Source: a virus. From it: a DNA stretch of 26,103 nt. The stretch's first letter is position 1, and each line of letters opens with the position of its first letter. Under the pieces are notes generated by a model that saw only the letters and a list, made by a program, of their open reading frames with translations, ran no database searches and was not told the DNA's origin. Shown here one piece after another: positions 19,371 to 26,103 of this stretch. The position numbers and the translations under genes are program-made. The stretch lies in the IMG/VR virus record IMGVR_UViG_3300031787_000731, positions 1 through 26,103 of that record; one strand, given 5' to 3'.

Positions 19371-20042
19371 CTATGTCTGAACAGCATTTGGATCGTAAGC
19401 ATTCGGATCGTAAAACGCCGCCGGATCAGCAACTTTTTCCTCAATAACAGAGATGTCGTCTACCGTGATGCCGGCTGAGATCACCGCGCTGCCGACGATC
19501 ATCCTGCCATAGCCGATCGGGACAGGGTTGCCCTGGGCGGTGACATTGACTGGGCCGTCGAAAATATAGCTTGATGGTGTGGCTTCCAATGGCTGTACAC
19601 CTTGCGGTGTCGGTGCAAGCAGCTGCGCAACACCGCCGAGGGCGAGGGAGACGCCTACACCAAACGCGACTTGACCAGCCAAGCCAGAGAACACAAGCCC
19701 AGCTTCTCCAAGCGTCGCGCCACCAGTGTAAAAGGCCAACGCGATCAATGCACCGCCAATCAATATCTTCGTAAGCGGATTATCTCCACCAGCCCCCATG
19801 ATCACTGGCGCAATGATCACTCGCCTGCTGGCAGGGTTATGCAGCTCCGACGCAGTGATCGACTCATCGCCTGAGATCACTCGATAGCCGACGTTGCGCT
19901 CCGCCGAGCTGGACATCCAAGATACGAAATCAGGGAAGTTAGCCGCAAGCGCTCGAATAGCTTCTGCAGGCGATCGCACGTCCATGCGATGCTGCCGACC
20001 GTAGCGCTTACCAAGCTCACCCAATAACAGGATCGTCAGCAT
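19371..20042 (-). CDS. I: Tail assembly protein I
   Basis: 223 aa, the same length as lambda gpI. The N-terminal ubiquitin-like unit (LTILLLGELGKRYGRQHRMDVRSPAEAIRALAANFPDF) is followed by a glycine/alanine-rich hydrophobic centre (PLTKILIGGALIALAFYTGGATLG ... GVGVSLALGGVAQLLAP), then VPIGYGRMIVGSAVISAGI near the C-terminus. Needed for tail-tip assembly and not usually found in virions in lambda. It overlaps gene K by 26 nt and precedes J by 11 nt. Confidence 0.92.
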   Translation of the reverse strand: MLTILLLGELGKRYGRQHRMDVRSPAEAIRALAANFPDFVSWMSSSAERNVGYRVISGDESITASELHNPASRRVIIAPVIMGAGGDNPLTKILIGGALIALAFYTGGATLGEAGLVFSGLAGQVAFGVGVSLALGGVAQLLAPTPQGVQPLEATPSSYIFDGPVNVTAQGNPVPIGYGRMIVGSAVISAGITVDDISVIEEKVADPAAFYDPNAYDPNAVQT

Positions 20043-20721
20043 ATCTCAATGCGTGTGTAACGCGCCGCATCCATGTGTCGTCCAGCATCTCTCGGCCAGA
20101 CAGGCGATTTTGAACGTGGTGCAGGATGACATTATCGCCCAGATAGATCGCTGCGTGGTTGACAACTTTGCTGCCGACTCGCATCAATAAAGCATCACCA
20201 GGCTCAACCTCACTAAGTCTAATCTCACGAAACCCTTCATCGCGAAAATGGTCGCAATACAGGTCATCTCCGTGCTTCCACCATTCGACATTACGATCGT
20301 AGTCGTTAAGGTAGATTGATCCGTTGATCCGGTACCAGTCACGAACCAAAGTGTAGCAATCCGACTCCGCATGAACCCATTGTCGGCCAATCAAATCTGG
20401 CGTGTAACCCTGCGGCTCGCAGTATGCCCAACTGCCGTTAGGCACCGACACAATGTGCCACGGTAACCCGCTAGCTTGACACGCTTGACGATCGATTGAG
20501 CTGGGCGTTGGCAGCATGTTAGGGTGACTGTGCACTACCGCCACCACTTCGCCCATGTCAGAAGCTCGAGCGTAGTCGTTTGGGTCCATCAGAAAACATG
20601 ATGCTGCGTTTGATAGGTTGTCGCACGGGTGATACGTTGGCCCGCGGCTCGCCATGACAACCAGACCGCAAGACTCGCGCGGAAACTCGGTCATCGCATG
20701 CGTGTAGGCATCGCGTCTCAT
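20017..20721 (-). CDS. K: Tail tip protein K: JAMM peptidase plus NlpC/P60
   Basis: 234 aa from ATG 20721 (ATGA overlap with gene L). The N-terminal domain is JAMM/Mov34: Glu17 in PRESCG, then HSHP with His64 and His66, and Asp77 after ten residues, the complete metal-binding set. The C-terminal domain is NlpC/P60: Cys122 in AESDCYTLVRDWY and His189 in VVNHAAIYLGD. Lambda K has the same two-domain plan, and such proteins are thought to process tail parts or cut peptidoglycan during entry. An in-frame start at 20901 would bury it in gene L. Confidence 0.93.
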   Translation of the reverse strand: MRRDAYTHAMTEFPRESCGLVVMASRGPTYHPCDNLSNAASCFLMDPNDYARASDMGEVVAVVHSHPNMLPTPSSIDRQACQASGLPWHIVSVPNGSWAYCEPQGYTPDLIGRQWVHAESDCYTLVRDWYRINGSIYLNDYDRNVEWWKHGDDLYCDHFRDEGFREIRLSEVEPGDALLMRVGSKVVNHAAIYLGDNVILHHVQNRLSGREMLDDTWMRRVTHALRYADDPVIG

Positions 20722-21464
20722 CGCGTGAGCCCAGCTGCTGGGAACCCGCCAAACGGCAAAGGTTGGTATTCGCCAAACCGCAGCTTGCAGCTGGACAAAC
20801 GCTTGCCACACGCATCCAGCGCGAGCGAACCGACAACTTGATCGGACGTATTCCAGTAGTTGCTGCCAGAGTATCCGCACTGCGTGCTGCGGTACTTCCA
20901 AGTGCAGACGTTTTGAATGATCTGCCTGCGCGGCAGCTGAACCCCAGCAACATCAAACGCCGCAGCAAGTTCGAACTCGACAACGTCCTTGGTCTCGACG
21001 ACCTTTCGATCAACGTAAAAGATCTCGTCAGCAAACTCCGCGGTCGGATCCGCGCTGCTGGACCGCACGCGATAGTCCTGCGCAGTGAAGTTCAAGTCCA
21101 GCGACTGCTGATTAAAGTTTGCGTCATCAAGATACTTGACCAACGTGCGCTTGCGGGTGACCTTCGCACCTTGAAGATCCGAGTATGCCAGCACCAGCGC
21201 CGTGATCGTCCCGGCCACGTTGGACACAGCAATCTTTGGTCTTGGCAATTGACCATTACCCGAAAACTCAAACCCGCCGACCTGAATAGGAAAAGCAGTG
21301 TAAGTGTTGCCTTGCCAGACGACATTGCCACGCAATTGGTTGGTGCCAGCATGGAAACGATACAGGCTGCCGCCAAAACTGGTGCAATCCAGTACGAACA
21401 GCTCAATAATCGCGCTTGGGGCGAGCTTCTGGATCTCCGACGTAATGGTTGACGGTGTCGTCAC
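20718..21464 (-). CDS. L: Minor tail protein L (cysteine-containing tip protein)
   Basis: 248 aa, close to lambda L (232). The N-terminal beta-rich domain (IIELFVLDCTSFGG, then VVWQGNTYTAFPIQVGGFEFSGNGQLPRPKI) and C-terminal four cysteines at 187, 196, 219 and 226 match the family. Lambda gpL is reported to hold an iron-sulfur cluster in this C-terminal domain. The start is GTG 21464, overlapping gene M's stop (GTGA). Confidence 0.92.
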   Translation of the reverse strand: MTTPSTITSEIQKLAPSAIIELFVLDCTSFGGSLYRFHAGTNQLRGNVVWQGNTYTAFPIQVGGFEFSGNGQLPRPKIAVSNVAGTITALVLAYSDLQGAKVTRKRTLVKYLDDANFNQQSLDLNFTAQDYRVRSSSADPTAEFADEIFYVDRKVVETKDVVEFELAAAFDVAGVQLPRRQIIQNVCTWKYRSTQCGYSGSNYWNTSDQVVGSLALDACGKRLSSCKLRFGEYQPLPFGGFPAAGLTR

Positions 21465-21797: not shown

Positions 21798-23957
21798 TCA
21801 CGCCGCCGCTAAAATGCCGCCAGGACGGCGTTGATTGATCAGCTCGGCCTTGACTGCGCCTGCAATGAGCCTGCCCAGCTGGCCAGCGCCCTGATCGTTC
21901 TGAACCTGCGGAGCGCCGCCGTCAACCGACACGTTAACGACAACTGAAGTGCTGCCGCCGCCTTGCATCGTAACCGGAATCGAGCGGCCGTCTGGCAGCG
22001 GGACATAAGCCTCTGGCATTGAGCCTTCGCCAAACACAGCAAGCTGCGGGCTGTTGGCGATGCCGCCGCGGGCATAGCGCTTCAAAGGCTGCAATCCGCT
22101 GGACGACATAACGCCGCCCATTGCCAAACCAGGGATTGCGCGAAGCGTACTGATGTCTGTTGGTGCCGGAGTCAATGCAGCGCCTAACATCGAAAATAAT
22201 GGCTTCATAAGCGTCTGATACGACACCATTGTGATGATGTCCTTGATTACAGACCTTGCCATATCTTTAAATGATGTCTTGACTCCCATCGCAAAATCAG
22301 CAAATGCGCTTGCTGATTGTTTACCCCATCCTTCTAGCGCTTGGGTCAATTCACGCAATAGGTTTTTCTGTTCTTTCGCTGCGCCGCTAAATTCCTCTGA
22401 TGCTTTTTGCACACTGCGAATATAGGTATCGTATGTGATGACATTTCGCTGTAGCAGAGACTGCATCCGATCCAACTCGTCGTTGTACTTTTCAAGCGGC
22501 GTCCGGTTCTGCTCCGTTACTTGCCGGCCTTCAGCCTCAAGCTTCATGCGATCCATCACCAATCGCCGCGACTCCTCGTCACGCAGCTTCTGAGCGTCAG
22601 CGGCACGCTTGCGTTCTTCTTCGCCTAAGCGTTCTTGATCACGCAATGCTGACACCGCATTCAACAAGCTGCGGTAATGCGCGATCTCGTCATCTGTCAT
22701 GCCCAACCGATCAGCAAGCAACAGCTGATAACCAAGCTCACCAACAGTCAATTTGGTGATCTCGTCTCGGACCTTTTGAAGCATGTCAGCTCGCTGCTTC
22801 GCGCGCGCGGCTTCTTCTTGCGCGGCTTTTTTGCGCTCTTCTTCGGCTTTCTTTTCTTCGTCAATGCCTCGTTTATTGTCAGCGGCAATGGCGGCACGGA
22901 TTGCAGCTTGCTGTTCCTCAAGGCCCATCATTTCGTTGAGGGCGTCGATTTGACCTTGCAGACGCAGCATCTCAGGACTCGCACCTGGTGCAATCTGCCC
23001 ACGTTGTGTCATGCGTTGTTGCATAAATCTCGCAGAGTCAAGCCGAGCTTGCAGCCCCGCCAGCTCCTCACCAACCGTCTCAACCCGGCCAATGCTTTTC
23101 ATCTTGTCAAGCGCTGACCCAATTGCAGAAGTCAACGAATTCCAAGCACGTTCGAGTGAGCCAAGTCTTACTTGGCGCGTAGCAAGCGAATCATTTAAAG
23201 CATCCGCAGCAAACTTAATCGCCTCATCGTTGCGACCTTGTTCTTCAAGCTGCCGGATATAAGCGAACTGCTCGCGGCTCAAAAAGTTAAAATTGCGGTT
23301 GGTTTTGACTGCCCAATCCGACGCACTATCGGTTAGGCCATCGAACATCTTGACCACCTCATCGCGCGTGGCACCCGTCAGACGCTGGATGTTGCCCATG
23401 GCGGTCGCAACTGACCGCACAGCTCCAGGGCCGATGTCTCCGGTTCCAACCGCAGCCGATAGAAACCCTCGAGCGTTGGACATCGACGCCTGCGTCGTCG
23501 CAGCAATCGCCTCAGCCATGCGCTCGTAATTGTCCGCGGTGATGCCGGCGAAGTTGCCGGTCAATGCCAAGGTGCGCGAAAACTCGCGGCTTTCTTTGTA
23601 CCCAGCGATAAACGCCGCGCCGACGCCACCAATCGCTCCAGCAAGCAGCGCGAATCCACCCACCGCAGGCGTGATAACCGATCCAATGCCGCGGATCGCA
23701 TTACCAATTCCGCCAAACGATGTAGTGATCTGCGAGCCCTGCTGCAGCAGAACCATCAGCGGGTTCTGCCCACCTGCCAAGCTGACAGCAACGTCCTGAA
23801 ACTGCGCCGGCAACTGGCGCATCGCGTTGTTGATCTGACGGGCCGACGTGTCACCCTGCTGACCCATGCGCTTGAGGCTGTCGGTCAGTCGATCGACCTG
23901 TTGCGTCCCTTGCACATTGGCAGAAATGCCGATGGCAAGAGGAAAGTTTAACGCCAC
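21798..23957 (-). CDS. H: Tape measure protein
   Basis: 719 aa from GTG 23957, with GGGAG about 7 nt upstream. The N-terminus (VQGTQQVDRLTDSLKRMGQQGD, then LPAQFQDVAVSLAGGQNPLMVLLQQGSQI) is the phage tail-length tape-measure signature. A glycine/alanine hydrophobic segment lies near 90-120, a long charged coiled coil spans about 350-500, and the C-terminal domain (GLQPLKRYARGGIANSPQLAVFGEGSMPEAYVPLPDG) is lambda-tail-like. It sets tail length and is ejected with DNA; by the lambda rule its length implies a tail of roughly 100 nm (inference). Confidence 0.95.
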   Translation of the reverse strand: MALNFPLAIGISANVQGTQQVDRLTDSLKRMGQQGDTSARQINNAMRQLPAQFQDVAVSLAGGQNPLMVLLQQGSQITTSFGGIGNAIRGIGSVITPAVGGFALLAGAIGGVGAAFIAGYKESREFSRTLALTGNFAGITADNYERMAEAIAATTQASMSNARGFLSAAVGTGDIGPGAVRSVATAMGNIQRLTGATRDEVVKMFDGLTDSASDWAVKTNRNFNFLSREQFAYIRQLEEQGRNDEAIKFAADALNDSLATRQVRLGSLERAWNSLTSAIGSALDKMKSIGRVETVGEELAGLQARLDSARFMQQRMTQRGQIAPGASPEMLRLQGQIDALNEMMGLEEQQAAIRAAIAADNKRGIDEEKKAEEERKKAAQEEAARAKQRADMLQKVRDEITKLTVGELGYQLLLADRLGMTDDEIAHYRSLLNAVSALRDQERLGEEERKRAADAQKLRDEESRRLVMDRMKLEAEGRQVTEQNRTPLEKYNDELDRMQSLLQRNVITYDTYIRSVQKASEEFSGAAKEQKNLLRELTQALEGWGKQSASAFADFAMGVKTSFKDMARSVIKDIITMVSYQTLMKPLFSMLGAALTPAPTDISTLRAIPGLAMGGVMSSSGLQPLKRYARGGIANSPQLAVFGEGSMPEAYVPLPDGRSIPVTMQGGGSTSVVVNVSVDGGAPQVQNDQGAGQLGRLIAGAVKAELINQRRPGGILAAA

Positions 23958-23958
23958 G

Positions 23959-24632
23959 TCAGCTCTCCCGCTTATTCAGAACCTGCAGCGCCGCAAGTTC
24001 CATCGTCTGCAGATCATTCATCATTGCAGCCTGATCTGCCACAGCATGGATTTTAAACAATGCCTCGACAGCAGGATAGTTCAAACCAAGGAAGATGCCA
24101 GTCGATGATACGTTCCACTGGGTCTGCAGTCTCAAGAACATAACGACAGAGTCGGTGTTTTCTTCCCAGACCGCAAAATCCGTGTCAGCTTGAGGCAAGC
24201 TGTCCAGCTGTTCAGCAGTCGCCCCAAACGCCGCAAGATCCTCTGCTGTATCGTCTTGTACGCCGCCCTGCGCCCAGTGCCTGGCGGCGTCAATCAGTTT
24301 TTTCGCTTGGCGCCTGACAAGCTGGCGAACAGCGCCAGAACGATACTGCCAGCGACCATTGGCACCTCAAGCAGCTGGTCCAGCGCCTGCGCCGAGAACG
24401 GCACCGCACCATCCTGGTCAACTACGCTCGACCACCCAACCATCACCTCACGCACCAGATCCACGTCGCGGATCTCCTCGCGCTCAATGAGCTTGCGGAT
24501 CTCCTCAATGCGAGACTGTGTAAGACGCTTGAACTCAGCGTCAAACGTGGCTTTCTCAGTGCGTCCACCGTCAGCAGGAACTTCGACCGTTACCGGCCAG
24601 GTGTAGGTGTCAGATTGCGATAGTTTGAACAT
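23959..24632 (-). CDS. G-T tail assembly chaperone fusion made by -1 frameshift
   Basis: Translation from 24632 in the G frame through AAA AAC (24302-24297), then a -1 shift reading CTG ATT GAC from 24297, gives 224 aa: 112 of G plus 112 of T. The -1 frame has no stop from the slip site to 23959. The T part includes DAARHWAQGG, VWEENTDSV and FLRLQTQW, and LNYPAVEALFKI near its C-terminus, matching DUF1799 phage proteins. The T frame has no convincing own start: the TTG at 24198 lacks a ribosome-binding site. In lambda, G and G-T chaperone the major tail protein around the tape measure. The fusion follows from sequence; its production in vivo is inferred. Confidence 0.82.
24260..24303 (-). promoter_or_regulatory. 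Programmed -1 ribosomal frameshift site
   Basis: The slippery heptamer A AAA AAC occupies 24303-24297 with the right phase, and the G stop TGA follows immediately. After a 6-nt spacer comes a perfect 8-bp stem (24290-24283 with 24267-24260, ACGCCGCC/GGCGGCGT) with a 15-nt loop. Phase, spacer and stem match classical -1 stimulators. Confidence 0.85.
24294..24632 (-). CDS. G: Tail assembly chaperone G
   Basis: 112 aa, the short unshifted product. It reads FKLSQSDTYTWPVTVEVPADGGRTEKATFDAEFKRLTQSRIEEIRKLIEREE, a beta strand pair then helices, the pattern of siphophage tail chaperones. It ends ...LSGAKRKN at the slippery site. It lies between the DUF7936-like gene and the tape measure, the lambda position for G. 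The ribosome-binding site before the ATG is weak (AAAGTTGATTA), so coupling to the upstream gene is likely. Confidence 0.87.
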   Translation of the reverse strand: MFKLSQSDTYTWPVTVEVPADGGRTEKATFDAEFKRLTQSRIEEIRKLIEREEIRDVDLVREVMVGWSSVVDQDGAVPFSAQALDQLLEVPMVAGSIVLALFASLSGAKRKN

Positions 24633-24658: not shown

Positions 24659-24970
24659 CTACGCAGCCCACGGCAGCGGTGGCGCTACCACGGGCGGATT
24701 CTTTTGATTCTCGATCTGTTGCAAGACTGCCGCTTCAGTGGCGTCCTTGTCAACCCCATTCGCCCAGATCCATTCGAGCACTTGCTCTTGGGTCAGGCTG
24801 GCGTAGGGTGTAAAGGACTCAGGATCAGGCGAGGGCAGCGAGCAGGTGGCGTAGACAGAAGCTGAGTAGCCGTCTACGGTATCCGAGCACTGCCAGTGAG
24901 CCACGATGCAAACGTCAGACAGATCGCCTTCTGATACTTTGCAGTCAAGACGGGAGATGTTCCAGTTCAT
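24659..24970 (-). CDS. DUF7936-like phage protein
   Basis: 103 aa. MNWNISRLDCKVSEGDLSDVCIVAHWQCS opens a small beta domain; TPYASLTQEQVLEWIWANGVDKDATEAAVLQQIENQKNPPVVAPPLPWAA is the conserved C-terminal helix pair with the ...PLPWA ending of DUF7936. I know this family from environmental and cyanobacterial tailed phages, where it neighbours tail-fibre genes and has no known function. It starts 2 nt after the fibre gene's stop. Here it lies directly before G, an unusual position for the lambda scheme. Confidence 0.8.
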   Translation of the reverse strand: MNWNISRLDCKVSEGDLSDVCIVAHWQCSDTVDGYSASVYATCSLPSPDPESFTPYASLTQEQVLEWIWANGVDKDATEAAVLQQIENQKNPPVVAPPLPWAA

Positions 24971-24972
24971 TA

Positions 24973-26103
24973 TTAAGCCCCTTTGAGTGCGGCCACTTCG
25001 GCCTCTAGGGTTTCAATACGGGCCATTGCTTCTTGCAGGGCTTTGATGGCTGCGTGATACATATCGGTCGTGTAGATCGTCTTGTACGGCACTTCGCCTT
25101 CTGTCGCTTCGCCAAATCCATCGTTGCTCACAAACTCAGGCGCAACAGATTCAACCTGCTGGGCAATTACGCCGATGTTTGCAATGTCATCGGTTTGGTC
25201 TTTGTACCTGAACGATACGATCTCAAGCGACTTGATCTTGTCCCAGTACGAAGCAACCGGGGCAATATCCGTTTTAAGCCGAGCGTCTGACAAGTTGACA
25301 TCGTTTGCTTGGTAGTTGGCAAGACCGCCGTTGGATCGGATAGATGCGCGTTGGTTAGCATCGCCATAACAACGAAGGAAAAATGAATCTGTTGAGTTTG
25401 GATCAGCGGTTAAATTGATGTATACACCATATGCGCCAGACACGGCACTAGATGTACTTGTTACACGAACAGAATCAGTATTGTTGGTTTGATAAAACTC
25501 GTTGTATCCGCCAGTGCTGTCTGCGTAGGTCCCCGTATTACTCGCCTTAAAGTACCCACCGCTGGTGATACGGGCGCGTTCTGCATTAGTCCCCGCATTT
25601 GATGTCAAAAAGCGAATAAGCGTGCTACCACCGCTAGAGTTTGCGTTAAGCGTTAACTCACCGCTACTGCCGCCATAATTCAAATAGCCGTAATTTGTAT
25701 TGCTGCCATTACCATCGTGGAATGCGACTTGGGTTGTCCCGCCTACAACTGTTGCTCTACCAATTGCTGTTGTACCACCAACCATCCAATTCCCACTAGC
25801 ATCCAGCGTCATTGCTTGGGTGAAGGTGATCGGGTCGCCTGCGGTGCCGGAGGGGGCGTTGTACCAAATGTGTCTTCCGCTGCTTGAGTTATAACGAGTT
25901 GCAAAACCTGTATTGATGTAGTTCCAAGTAGAACCACCAGAAGTTAAGAAAGCGTTATTTCCAATTTCAAGCGCAATATTATCAACAGCGTAAAAAGAAG
26001 CCTGTCTAACTTGTGCGACTGTTGAACCAGATGTATACCAAGCACTAGGCGTCACCCCCAGACCGAGGTTGCCGGAGGAGTTGAGGGTCATGTCTACGCT
26101 ACT
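24973..26103 (-). CDS. Tail fibre with C-terminal S74 intramolecular chaperone (5' truncated)
   Basis: The frame is open to the window edge (26103) with no start signal, so the gene begins outside; at least 376 residues are here. Repeated MTLNSSGNLGLGVTPSAW/MTLDASGNWMVGGTTAIG-type segments and long S/T/G/N-rich beta stretches mark a trimeric fibre shaft. The C-terminal 110 residues contain NLSDARLKTDI, the S74 signature with the autocleavage Ser, then IVSFRYKDQTDDIANIGVIAQQVESVAPEFVS, and end in a coiled coil (IKALQEAMARIETLEAEVAALKGA). The domain trimerises the fibre and then cuts itself off. AT-rich relative to the tail genes. Confidence 0.9.
   Translation of the reverse strand, partial: SSVDMTLNSSGNLGLGVTPSAWYTSGSTVAQVRQASFYAVDNIALEIGNNAFLTSGGSTWNYINTGFATRYNSSSGRHIWYNAPSGTAGDPITFTQAMTLDASGNWMVGGTTAIGRATVVGGTTQVAFHDGNGSNTNYGYLNYGGSSGELTLNANSSGGSTLIRFLTSNAGTNAERARITSGGYFKASNTGTYADSTGGYNEFYQTNNTDSVRVTSTSSAVSGAYGVYINLTADPNSTDSFFLRCYGDANQRASIRSNGGLANYQANDVNLSDARLKTDIAPVASYWDKIKSLEIVSFRYKDQTDDIANIGVIAQQVESVAPEFVSNDGFGEATEGEVPYKTIYTTDMYHAAIKALQEAMARIETLEAEVAALKGA

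Follow-up and report, generated by a model that had tools for sequence, protein, structure and literature searches.

A −1 frameshift signal very probably joins G-like and DUF1799 T-like tail assembly chaperones in an IMG/VR virus genome

Introduction

Lambda-type frameshifting, by which the tail assembly chaperones G and G-T are made from one message, is established and widespread (PMC5009743). In lambda, a small chaperone frame and its −1 extension stand just before the tape measure gene and are joined at a heptamer of the X XXY YYZ type. An A AAA AAC frameshift has been published for gp12/gp13 of Acinetobacter phage vB_AbaS_Loki, with the motif noted in IME_AB3 too (PMC5313236), and the archaeal viruses HCTV-1 and HCTV-2 are reported with G_GGA_AAC and A_AAA_AAC (PMC5009743). 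In the insertion sequence IS1, AAAAAAC (the A6C motif) lies shortly before the upstream frame ends and directs a low-rate −1 shift that yields the InsA-InsB' fusion (PMC12428005), although this serves transposase regulation and the proteins are unrelated. Here we analyse a stretch of 26,103 nucleotides (nt), positions 1 to 26,103 of IMG/VR virus record IMGVR_UViG_3300031787_000731 (hereafter the window), in which a lambda G-like chaperone frame on the minus strand ends in A AAA AAC and a T-like frame carrying a DUF1799 domain continues in the −1 frame. A G/T tail-chaperone frameshift had been proposed here from the sequence alone. Taking into account the heptamer, the stem, the missing T start and the conservation of all three, it is the only reading that fits, and we consider the junction almost certainly to be a programmed −1 ribosomal frameshift that sets the ratio of the G and G-T tail assembly chaperones.

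A slippery heptamer, stop codon and hairpin at the end of G

Read on the minus strand, G terminates in ...GGC GCC AAG CGA AAA AAC TGA TTG, after which come the 5′ arm of a stem, ACGCCGCC, then AGGCACTGGGCGCAG, then the 3′ arm, GGCGGCGT, with a loop of 15 nt. The elements of the junction are:

24294..24632, minus strand: G-like tail assembly chaperone, an open reading frame (ORF) of 112 amino acids plus TGA stop
24297..24303, minus strand: slippery heptamer A AAA AAC in the phase xxA AAA AAC, with AAA in the P site and AAC in the A site
24294..24296, minus strand: 0-frame TGA stop, adjoining the heptamer and lying within CTG ATT (Leu-Ile) in the −1 frame
24291..24296, minus strand: spacer TGATTG, 6 nt from heptamer to stem
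24283..24290, minus strand: 5′ arm of the stem, ACGCCGCC, a perfect 8 base pairs (bp) with the 3′ arm
24260..24267, minus strand: 3′ arm of the stem, GGCGGCGT, pairing with ACGCCGCC
23959..24297, minus strand: −1 frame T extension, 112 amino acids with DUF1799, predicted to be read only after the shift

The −1 frame is open for 112 codons (24297 to 23959), 33 of them leading to a TTG at 24198 and another 79 following, and the G-T fusion would comprise 224 amino acids with the joint ...KRKN-LIDAAR.... The heptamer phase, the 6-nt spacer, the 8-bp stem and the count of 33 + 79 codons given in the original prediction are correct in every coordinate. The window contains three copies of AAAAAAC, against 1.98 in shuffled sequences; it is therefore not the motif alone, but its position and phase, that make the junction unlikely to have arisen by chance, and we estimate the probability of one AAAAAAC falling in phase against the G stop at about 4e-5. 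The stem region shows a folding energy of −21.9 kcal/mol, compared with −14.0 kcal/mol for dinucleotide shuffles (z −3.65), and the distance of 6 nt to an 8-bp stem lies within the 5–8 nt of a canonical bacterial −1 programmed ribosomal frameshifting signal. Rfam and tRNA scans of the window returned no matches.

Conservation of the junction

Homologues were gathered from two scans of viral contigs for the whole fusion, to which a protein search added nine named phages, and their loci were clustered at 80% identity into 41 clusters (the close set). A wider set covers enterobacterial and other phages and prophages and includes contigs that are nearly identical, as well as HK639 and phiES15 for a second time. 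Overall, 178 homologous junctions were examined, many of them near-identical, and in 170 X XXA AAC abuts the G stop. In the close set 83 junctions, that of the window among them, have a readable G stop, and every one ends in X XXA AAC plus stop; the same arrangement is found in 87 of 92 junctions of the wider set. Counted by cluster, the in-phase heptamer is present in 41 of 41, as A AAA AAC in 39 and as G GGA AAC in two, which still obey the X XXY YYZ rule. Homologues that keep T and lose both heptamer and stem, named in the original prediction as grounds for abandoning it, are thus not what the close set contains, and the stem is likewise seen in most homologues. A profile scan of genome contigs with the fusion alignment gave no confirmed relative.

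Codon choice around the slip site is constrained. All 39 A AAA AAC clusters encode the P-site Lys by AAA, whereas the lysine two codons upstream is encoded by AAG in 16 cases and by AAA in 13. The codon that holds the first A of the heptamer is CGA, AGA, GCA, GAA, GTA or ACA, and CAA in single loci; its amino acid varies (Arg, Ala, Glu, Val, Thr, Gln) and its final A is constant. Among the exceptions, the G GGA AAC of locus L087 is separated from the stop by one codon. Five Klebsiella phage junctions, from L099, L180 and L181 (Webervirus) and from L090 and L182 (HJK1, P61_2), lack the heptamer and are A-rich (GCA AAA GTY TAA or CAA AAG CCT TAA), again with the stop one codon later, and may use single-tRNA slips (A_AAA, A_AAG). 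In the HK639-like loci L100 and L109 (both 1526-1534) the slip run is longer by one A, so that G and T share one frame; the fusion is either genuine or due to a sequencing error in the run. In L012 no stop ends the T frame, which from 1464 continues into the tape measure protein and up to the contig end (612 codons); this may be a T-H fusion or the result of one missing base.

Pairing downstream of the heptamer is also retained, with spacers of mostly 3–8 nt in relatives. The window's own clade keeps the 8-bp stem, with changes solely of the G-C to G-U type. Across clades the partners differ and pairing persists, as in L021 (GGCGCAGCTCG/TGGGTTGCGCC), L027 (CCGCTGCTAT/GTAGTAGCGG), L030 (GCCGCCCA/TGGGCGGC), L036 (GCCGCTGTAGAGC/GTTCTATAGCGGC) and also L031. 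Because Ala-Ala and Gly-Gly codons are naturally complementary, pairing strength was compared with that of synonymous recodings of the same peptide in each locus's own codon usage. Pairing at the site is stronger than in the recodings (mean z −1.64 and summed z −10.5 over 41 clusters, with 23 of 41 below −1.64), and five control windows further into T gave summed z values of −1.0 to +2.5. Upstream, the family shows a Shine–Dalgarno (SD)-like stretch around a conserved Gly codon, 9–27 nt before the G stop (41 loci; summed z −4.0, controls −0.6 to +2.8).

Alternative explanations

Relatives of the T frame are called by gene finders as ORFs of their own, as would be expected if T were a separate gene, started at the TTG at 24198 or another internal codon and coupled to the G stop without frameshifting. 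Such a gene is very improbable. Start positions are scattered between clusters and mostly lack an SD sequence, no T start codon is conserved across clusters, and in six of them (L027, L030, L035, L040, L049, L077) the first 130 nt after the joint contain no start codon. Moreover, Leu113, Ala116 and Trp120, located between the joint and any start, are invariant in alignment A1 of the fusion proteins, and over the first 33 codons after the joint the variable positions of the −1 frame are 30 third, 13 first and 10 second positions, a translation-like third-position bias that begins at the joint itself. Independent initiation of T was rejected on account of these scattered or missing starts, of constraint that begins at the joint and of a frozen heptamer for which it offers no explanation.

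The heptamer would have a role if RNA polymerase slipped on the run of A, giving mRNA with an extra A in which G and T share one frame. The run consists of six A, or seven in some relatives, and the DNA of L100 and L109, with one more A and fused frames, has the form that such transcripts would take. Six A are short for efficient bacterial transcript slippage. Some relatives have switched to G GGA AAC (two clusters and several single loci), which argues against this explanation because no run is left to slip on, and both the hairpin after the site and the adjoining stop suit ribosomes better. Polymerase slippage was rejected for these reasons, and we accord it next to no probability.

Several observations weigh against a programmed ribosomal frameshift. 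The stem columns of the close clade show no clear covariation above shuffles, in a count limited by columns that are mostly invariant or change on one side only; the inherent complementarity of Ala-Ala and Gly-Gly codons contributes to this. There is little stem in some relatives (L073, L019, L038), and the SD-like stretch is weak in the window itself. Finally, A AAA AAC is a weak site in Escherichia coli (PMC4066793), which may not be the host of the window virus; sites weak in E. coli are used by insertion sequences (PMC4066793).

With these points taken into account, the junction is in all likelihood functional as a programmed −1 ribosomal frameshift, which would proceed as follows. Most ribosomes would read ...AAG CGA AAA AAC and end at TGA, producing G (112 amino acids). 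A minority, held back by the hairpin 6 nt past the heptamer, would slip one base back, the tRNAs on AAA and AAC re-pairing with AAA and AAA, and would then read CTG ATT GAC... to complete a 224-residue G-T protein with DUF1799 at its end. By analogy with lambda, the tape measure protein would be coated by many copies of G and few of G-T, the latter recruiting the tail tube subunit through their T part. We infer that slippage occurs, at some programmed rate, and that the two products act as chaperones, from the conserved anatomy, the coding constraint and the tail-gene context.

A possible role for the stop codon

In all 41 clusters the heptamer is followed immediately by a stop codon (TGA, TAA or TAG). 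The six clusters whose next −1 codon has G as its first base all use CTA for the Leu at the joint, which gives TAG, although CTA makes up 7% of Leu codons. The joint log10 probability of keeping the stop is −12.6 with clusters taken as independent, which they are not, and it indicates a scale rather than a p-value. This conservation would be explained if the shift were mainly post-translocational, with the stop in the A site and the tRNAs in the E and P sites, so that slippage competes with the release factor and the stop is part of the signal. We regard such a mechanism as possible, if on balance doubtful. In its favour, the choice of CTA preserves TAG, lambda has no adjoining stop, and bacterial ribosomes slip in this manner at a human immunodeficiency virus (HIV)-type site in competition with release factor 2 (RF2), at least as Horsfield 1995 is described in PMC4373837. 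Natural stops at the same position occur in Rous sarcoma and barley yellow dwarf viruses (PMC4373837). However, the need to end G cleanly would preserve the stop as well, the next 0-frame stop in the window lying 54 codons past the TGA of G. In addition, the stop may be any of the three, with no one weak context common to all, a stop at this position reduced apparent frameshifting in HIV tests (PMC4373837), and in the Webervirus relatives and L087 the stop stands one codon later.

A more specific and slightly more tentative proposal is that, in DUF1799-type phages, the stop is fixed beside a weak heptamer (X XXA AAC TRR) as part of the mechanism, ribosomes slipping while they await the release factor. 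If this unlikely proposal were true, the ratio of G to G-T would be tied to termination efficiency. The near-fixed stop beside a site measured as weak in E. coli provides a natural set of sequences bearing on whether bacterial −1 frameshifting competes with termination.

Chaperone proteins and their gene neighbourhood

The T extension matches PF08809 (DUF1799) with 43.2 bits, against a curated cut-off of 26, and phrog_680 (E 1.3e-25). G matches phrog_569 (E 2.8e-23) and scores 20.0 bits with Phage_TAC_4 (PF08748; E 8e-4), below the curated cut-off of 21.1. It is described here as TAC_4-like because of this score, although members of A1 do match: all 12 of its fusion proteins match Phage_TAC_4 and DUF1799 at E <= 0.01, with a best value of 8e-6 for Phage_TAC_4. 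The AlphaFold model of G (predicted local distance difference test score, pLDDT, 86) resembles predicted structures labelled 'Tape measure chaperone' in a BFVD fold search, with modest E-values; the matches include those of Serratia phage Scapp (129- and 236-amino-acid forms) and Enterobacter phage Ec_L1. Sequence and fold searches of the PDB with G gave no meaningful match.

The G and T frames lie directly 5′ of the tape measure gene, which completes the feature list:

21798..23957, minus strand: tape measure protein (H-like), PF06791 (E 7.6e-57), directly 3′ of T

The order of G, T, tape measure and relatives of M, L, K, I and J is that of lambda. The tube gene falls outside the window; relatives have a gene for a tail tube or major tail protein before G. 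The genes before G in the window occupy 24659-26103. They encode a DUF7936 protein (24970-24659) and, at 25-26 kb, a protein with a C-terminal S74 endosialidase-type chaperone domain whose frame is open at the window end; such a fibre-like gene before G is unusually placed compared with lambda. Further downstream, the K-like ORF, called with a TTG start (20017-20901), shares about 180 nt with the end of the L-like ORF (20718-21464). Its K domains begin well inside the called ORF, and the true K start is therefore probably further downstream.

Relation to described frameshift sites

The junction shares with lambda its gene order and a heptamer of the same class. The contrast with the lambdoid site drawn in the original prediction holds for lambda itself, where the heptamer is G GGA AAG, 15 nt before the G stop, and downstream pairing is weak (−6.3 kcal/mol in the stretch compared), whereas the window has A AAA AAC abutting the stop, a strong hairpin and a DUF1799 domain in T; the difference is, however, not peculiar to the window phage. 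In Loki, as described, an HK97 gp10-like gene separates the chaperones from the tape measure gene, and the likeness drawn here is one of motif. Homologues of both proteins that meet at the joint are found in the nine named phages, namely Synechococcus S-CBS1, S-LBS1 and S-CBS3, Rhodobacter RC1 and RcapMu, E. coli HK639, SECphi18 and Bas11, and Cronobacter phiES15. These carry A AAA AAC right before the stop, or G GGA AAC in RC1 and RcapMu; they differ in sequence, with about 30–41% protein identity where the whole fusion was matched, and the enterobacterial ones match on the T side only.

In the nine phages, G and T are mostly annotated as two hypothetical proteins. The expectation that annotation misses T is accordingly borne out in part: T is often split or dropped, but the shift is already annotated in RcapMu (as a note), Sushi (as a joined coding sequence), Loki (PMC5313236), Skenny (PMC6763657) and U136B (PMC8104045), the sites of RcapMu, Sushi, Skenny and U136B being homologous ones. 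A literature search, with most subscription papers outside its reach, found no paper on the signal as a feature of the DUF1799 family. From the homologues compared here, A AAA AAC against the stop is the rule in DUF1799-type phages, those of E. coli included. Gene calls would be corrected accordingly, T of the window virus and of many relatives being the −1 extension of G. The junction is thus of a kind already known from lambda and many relatives, and extends a known class of recoding by one clean case and an alignment that spans the family.
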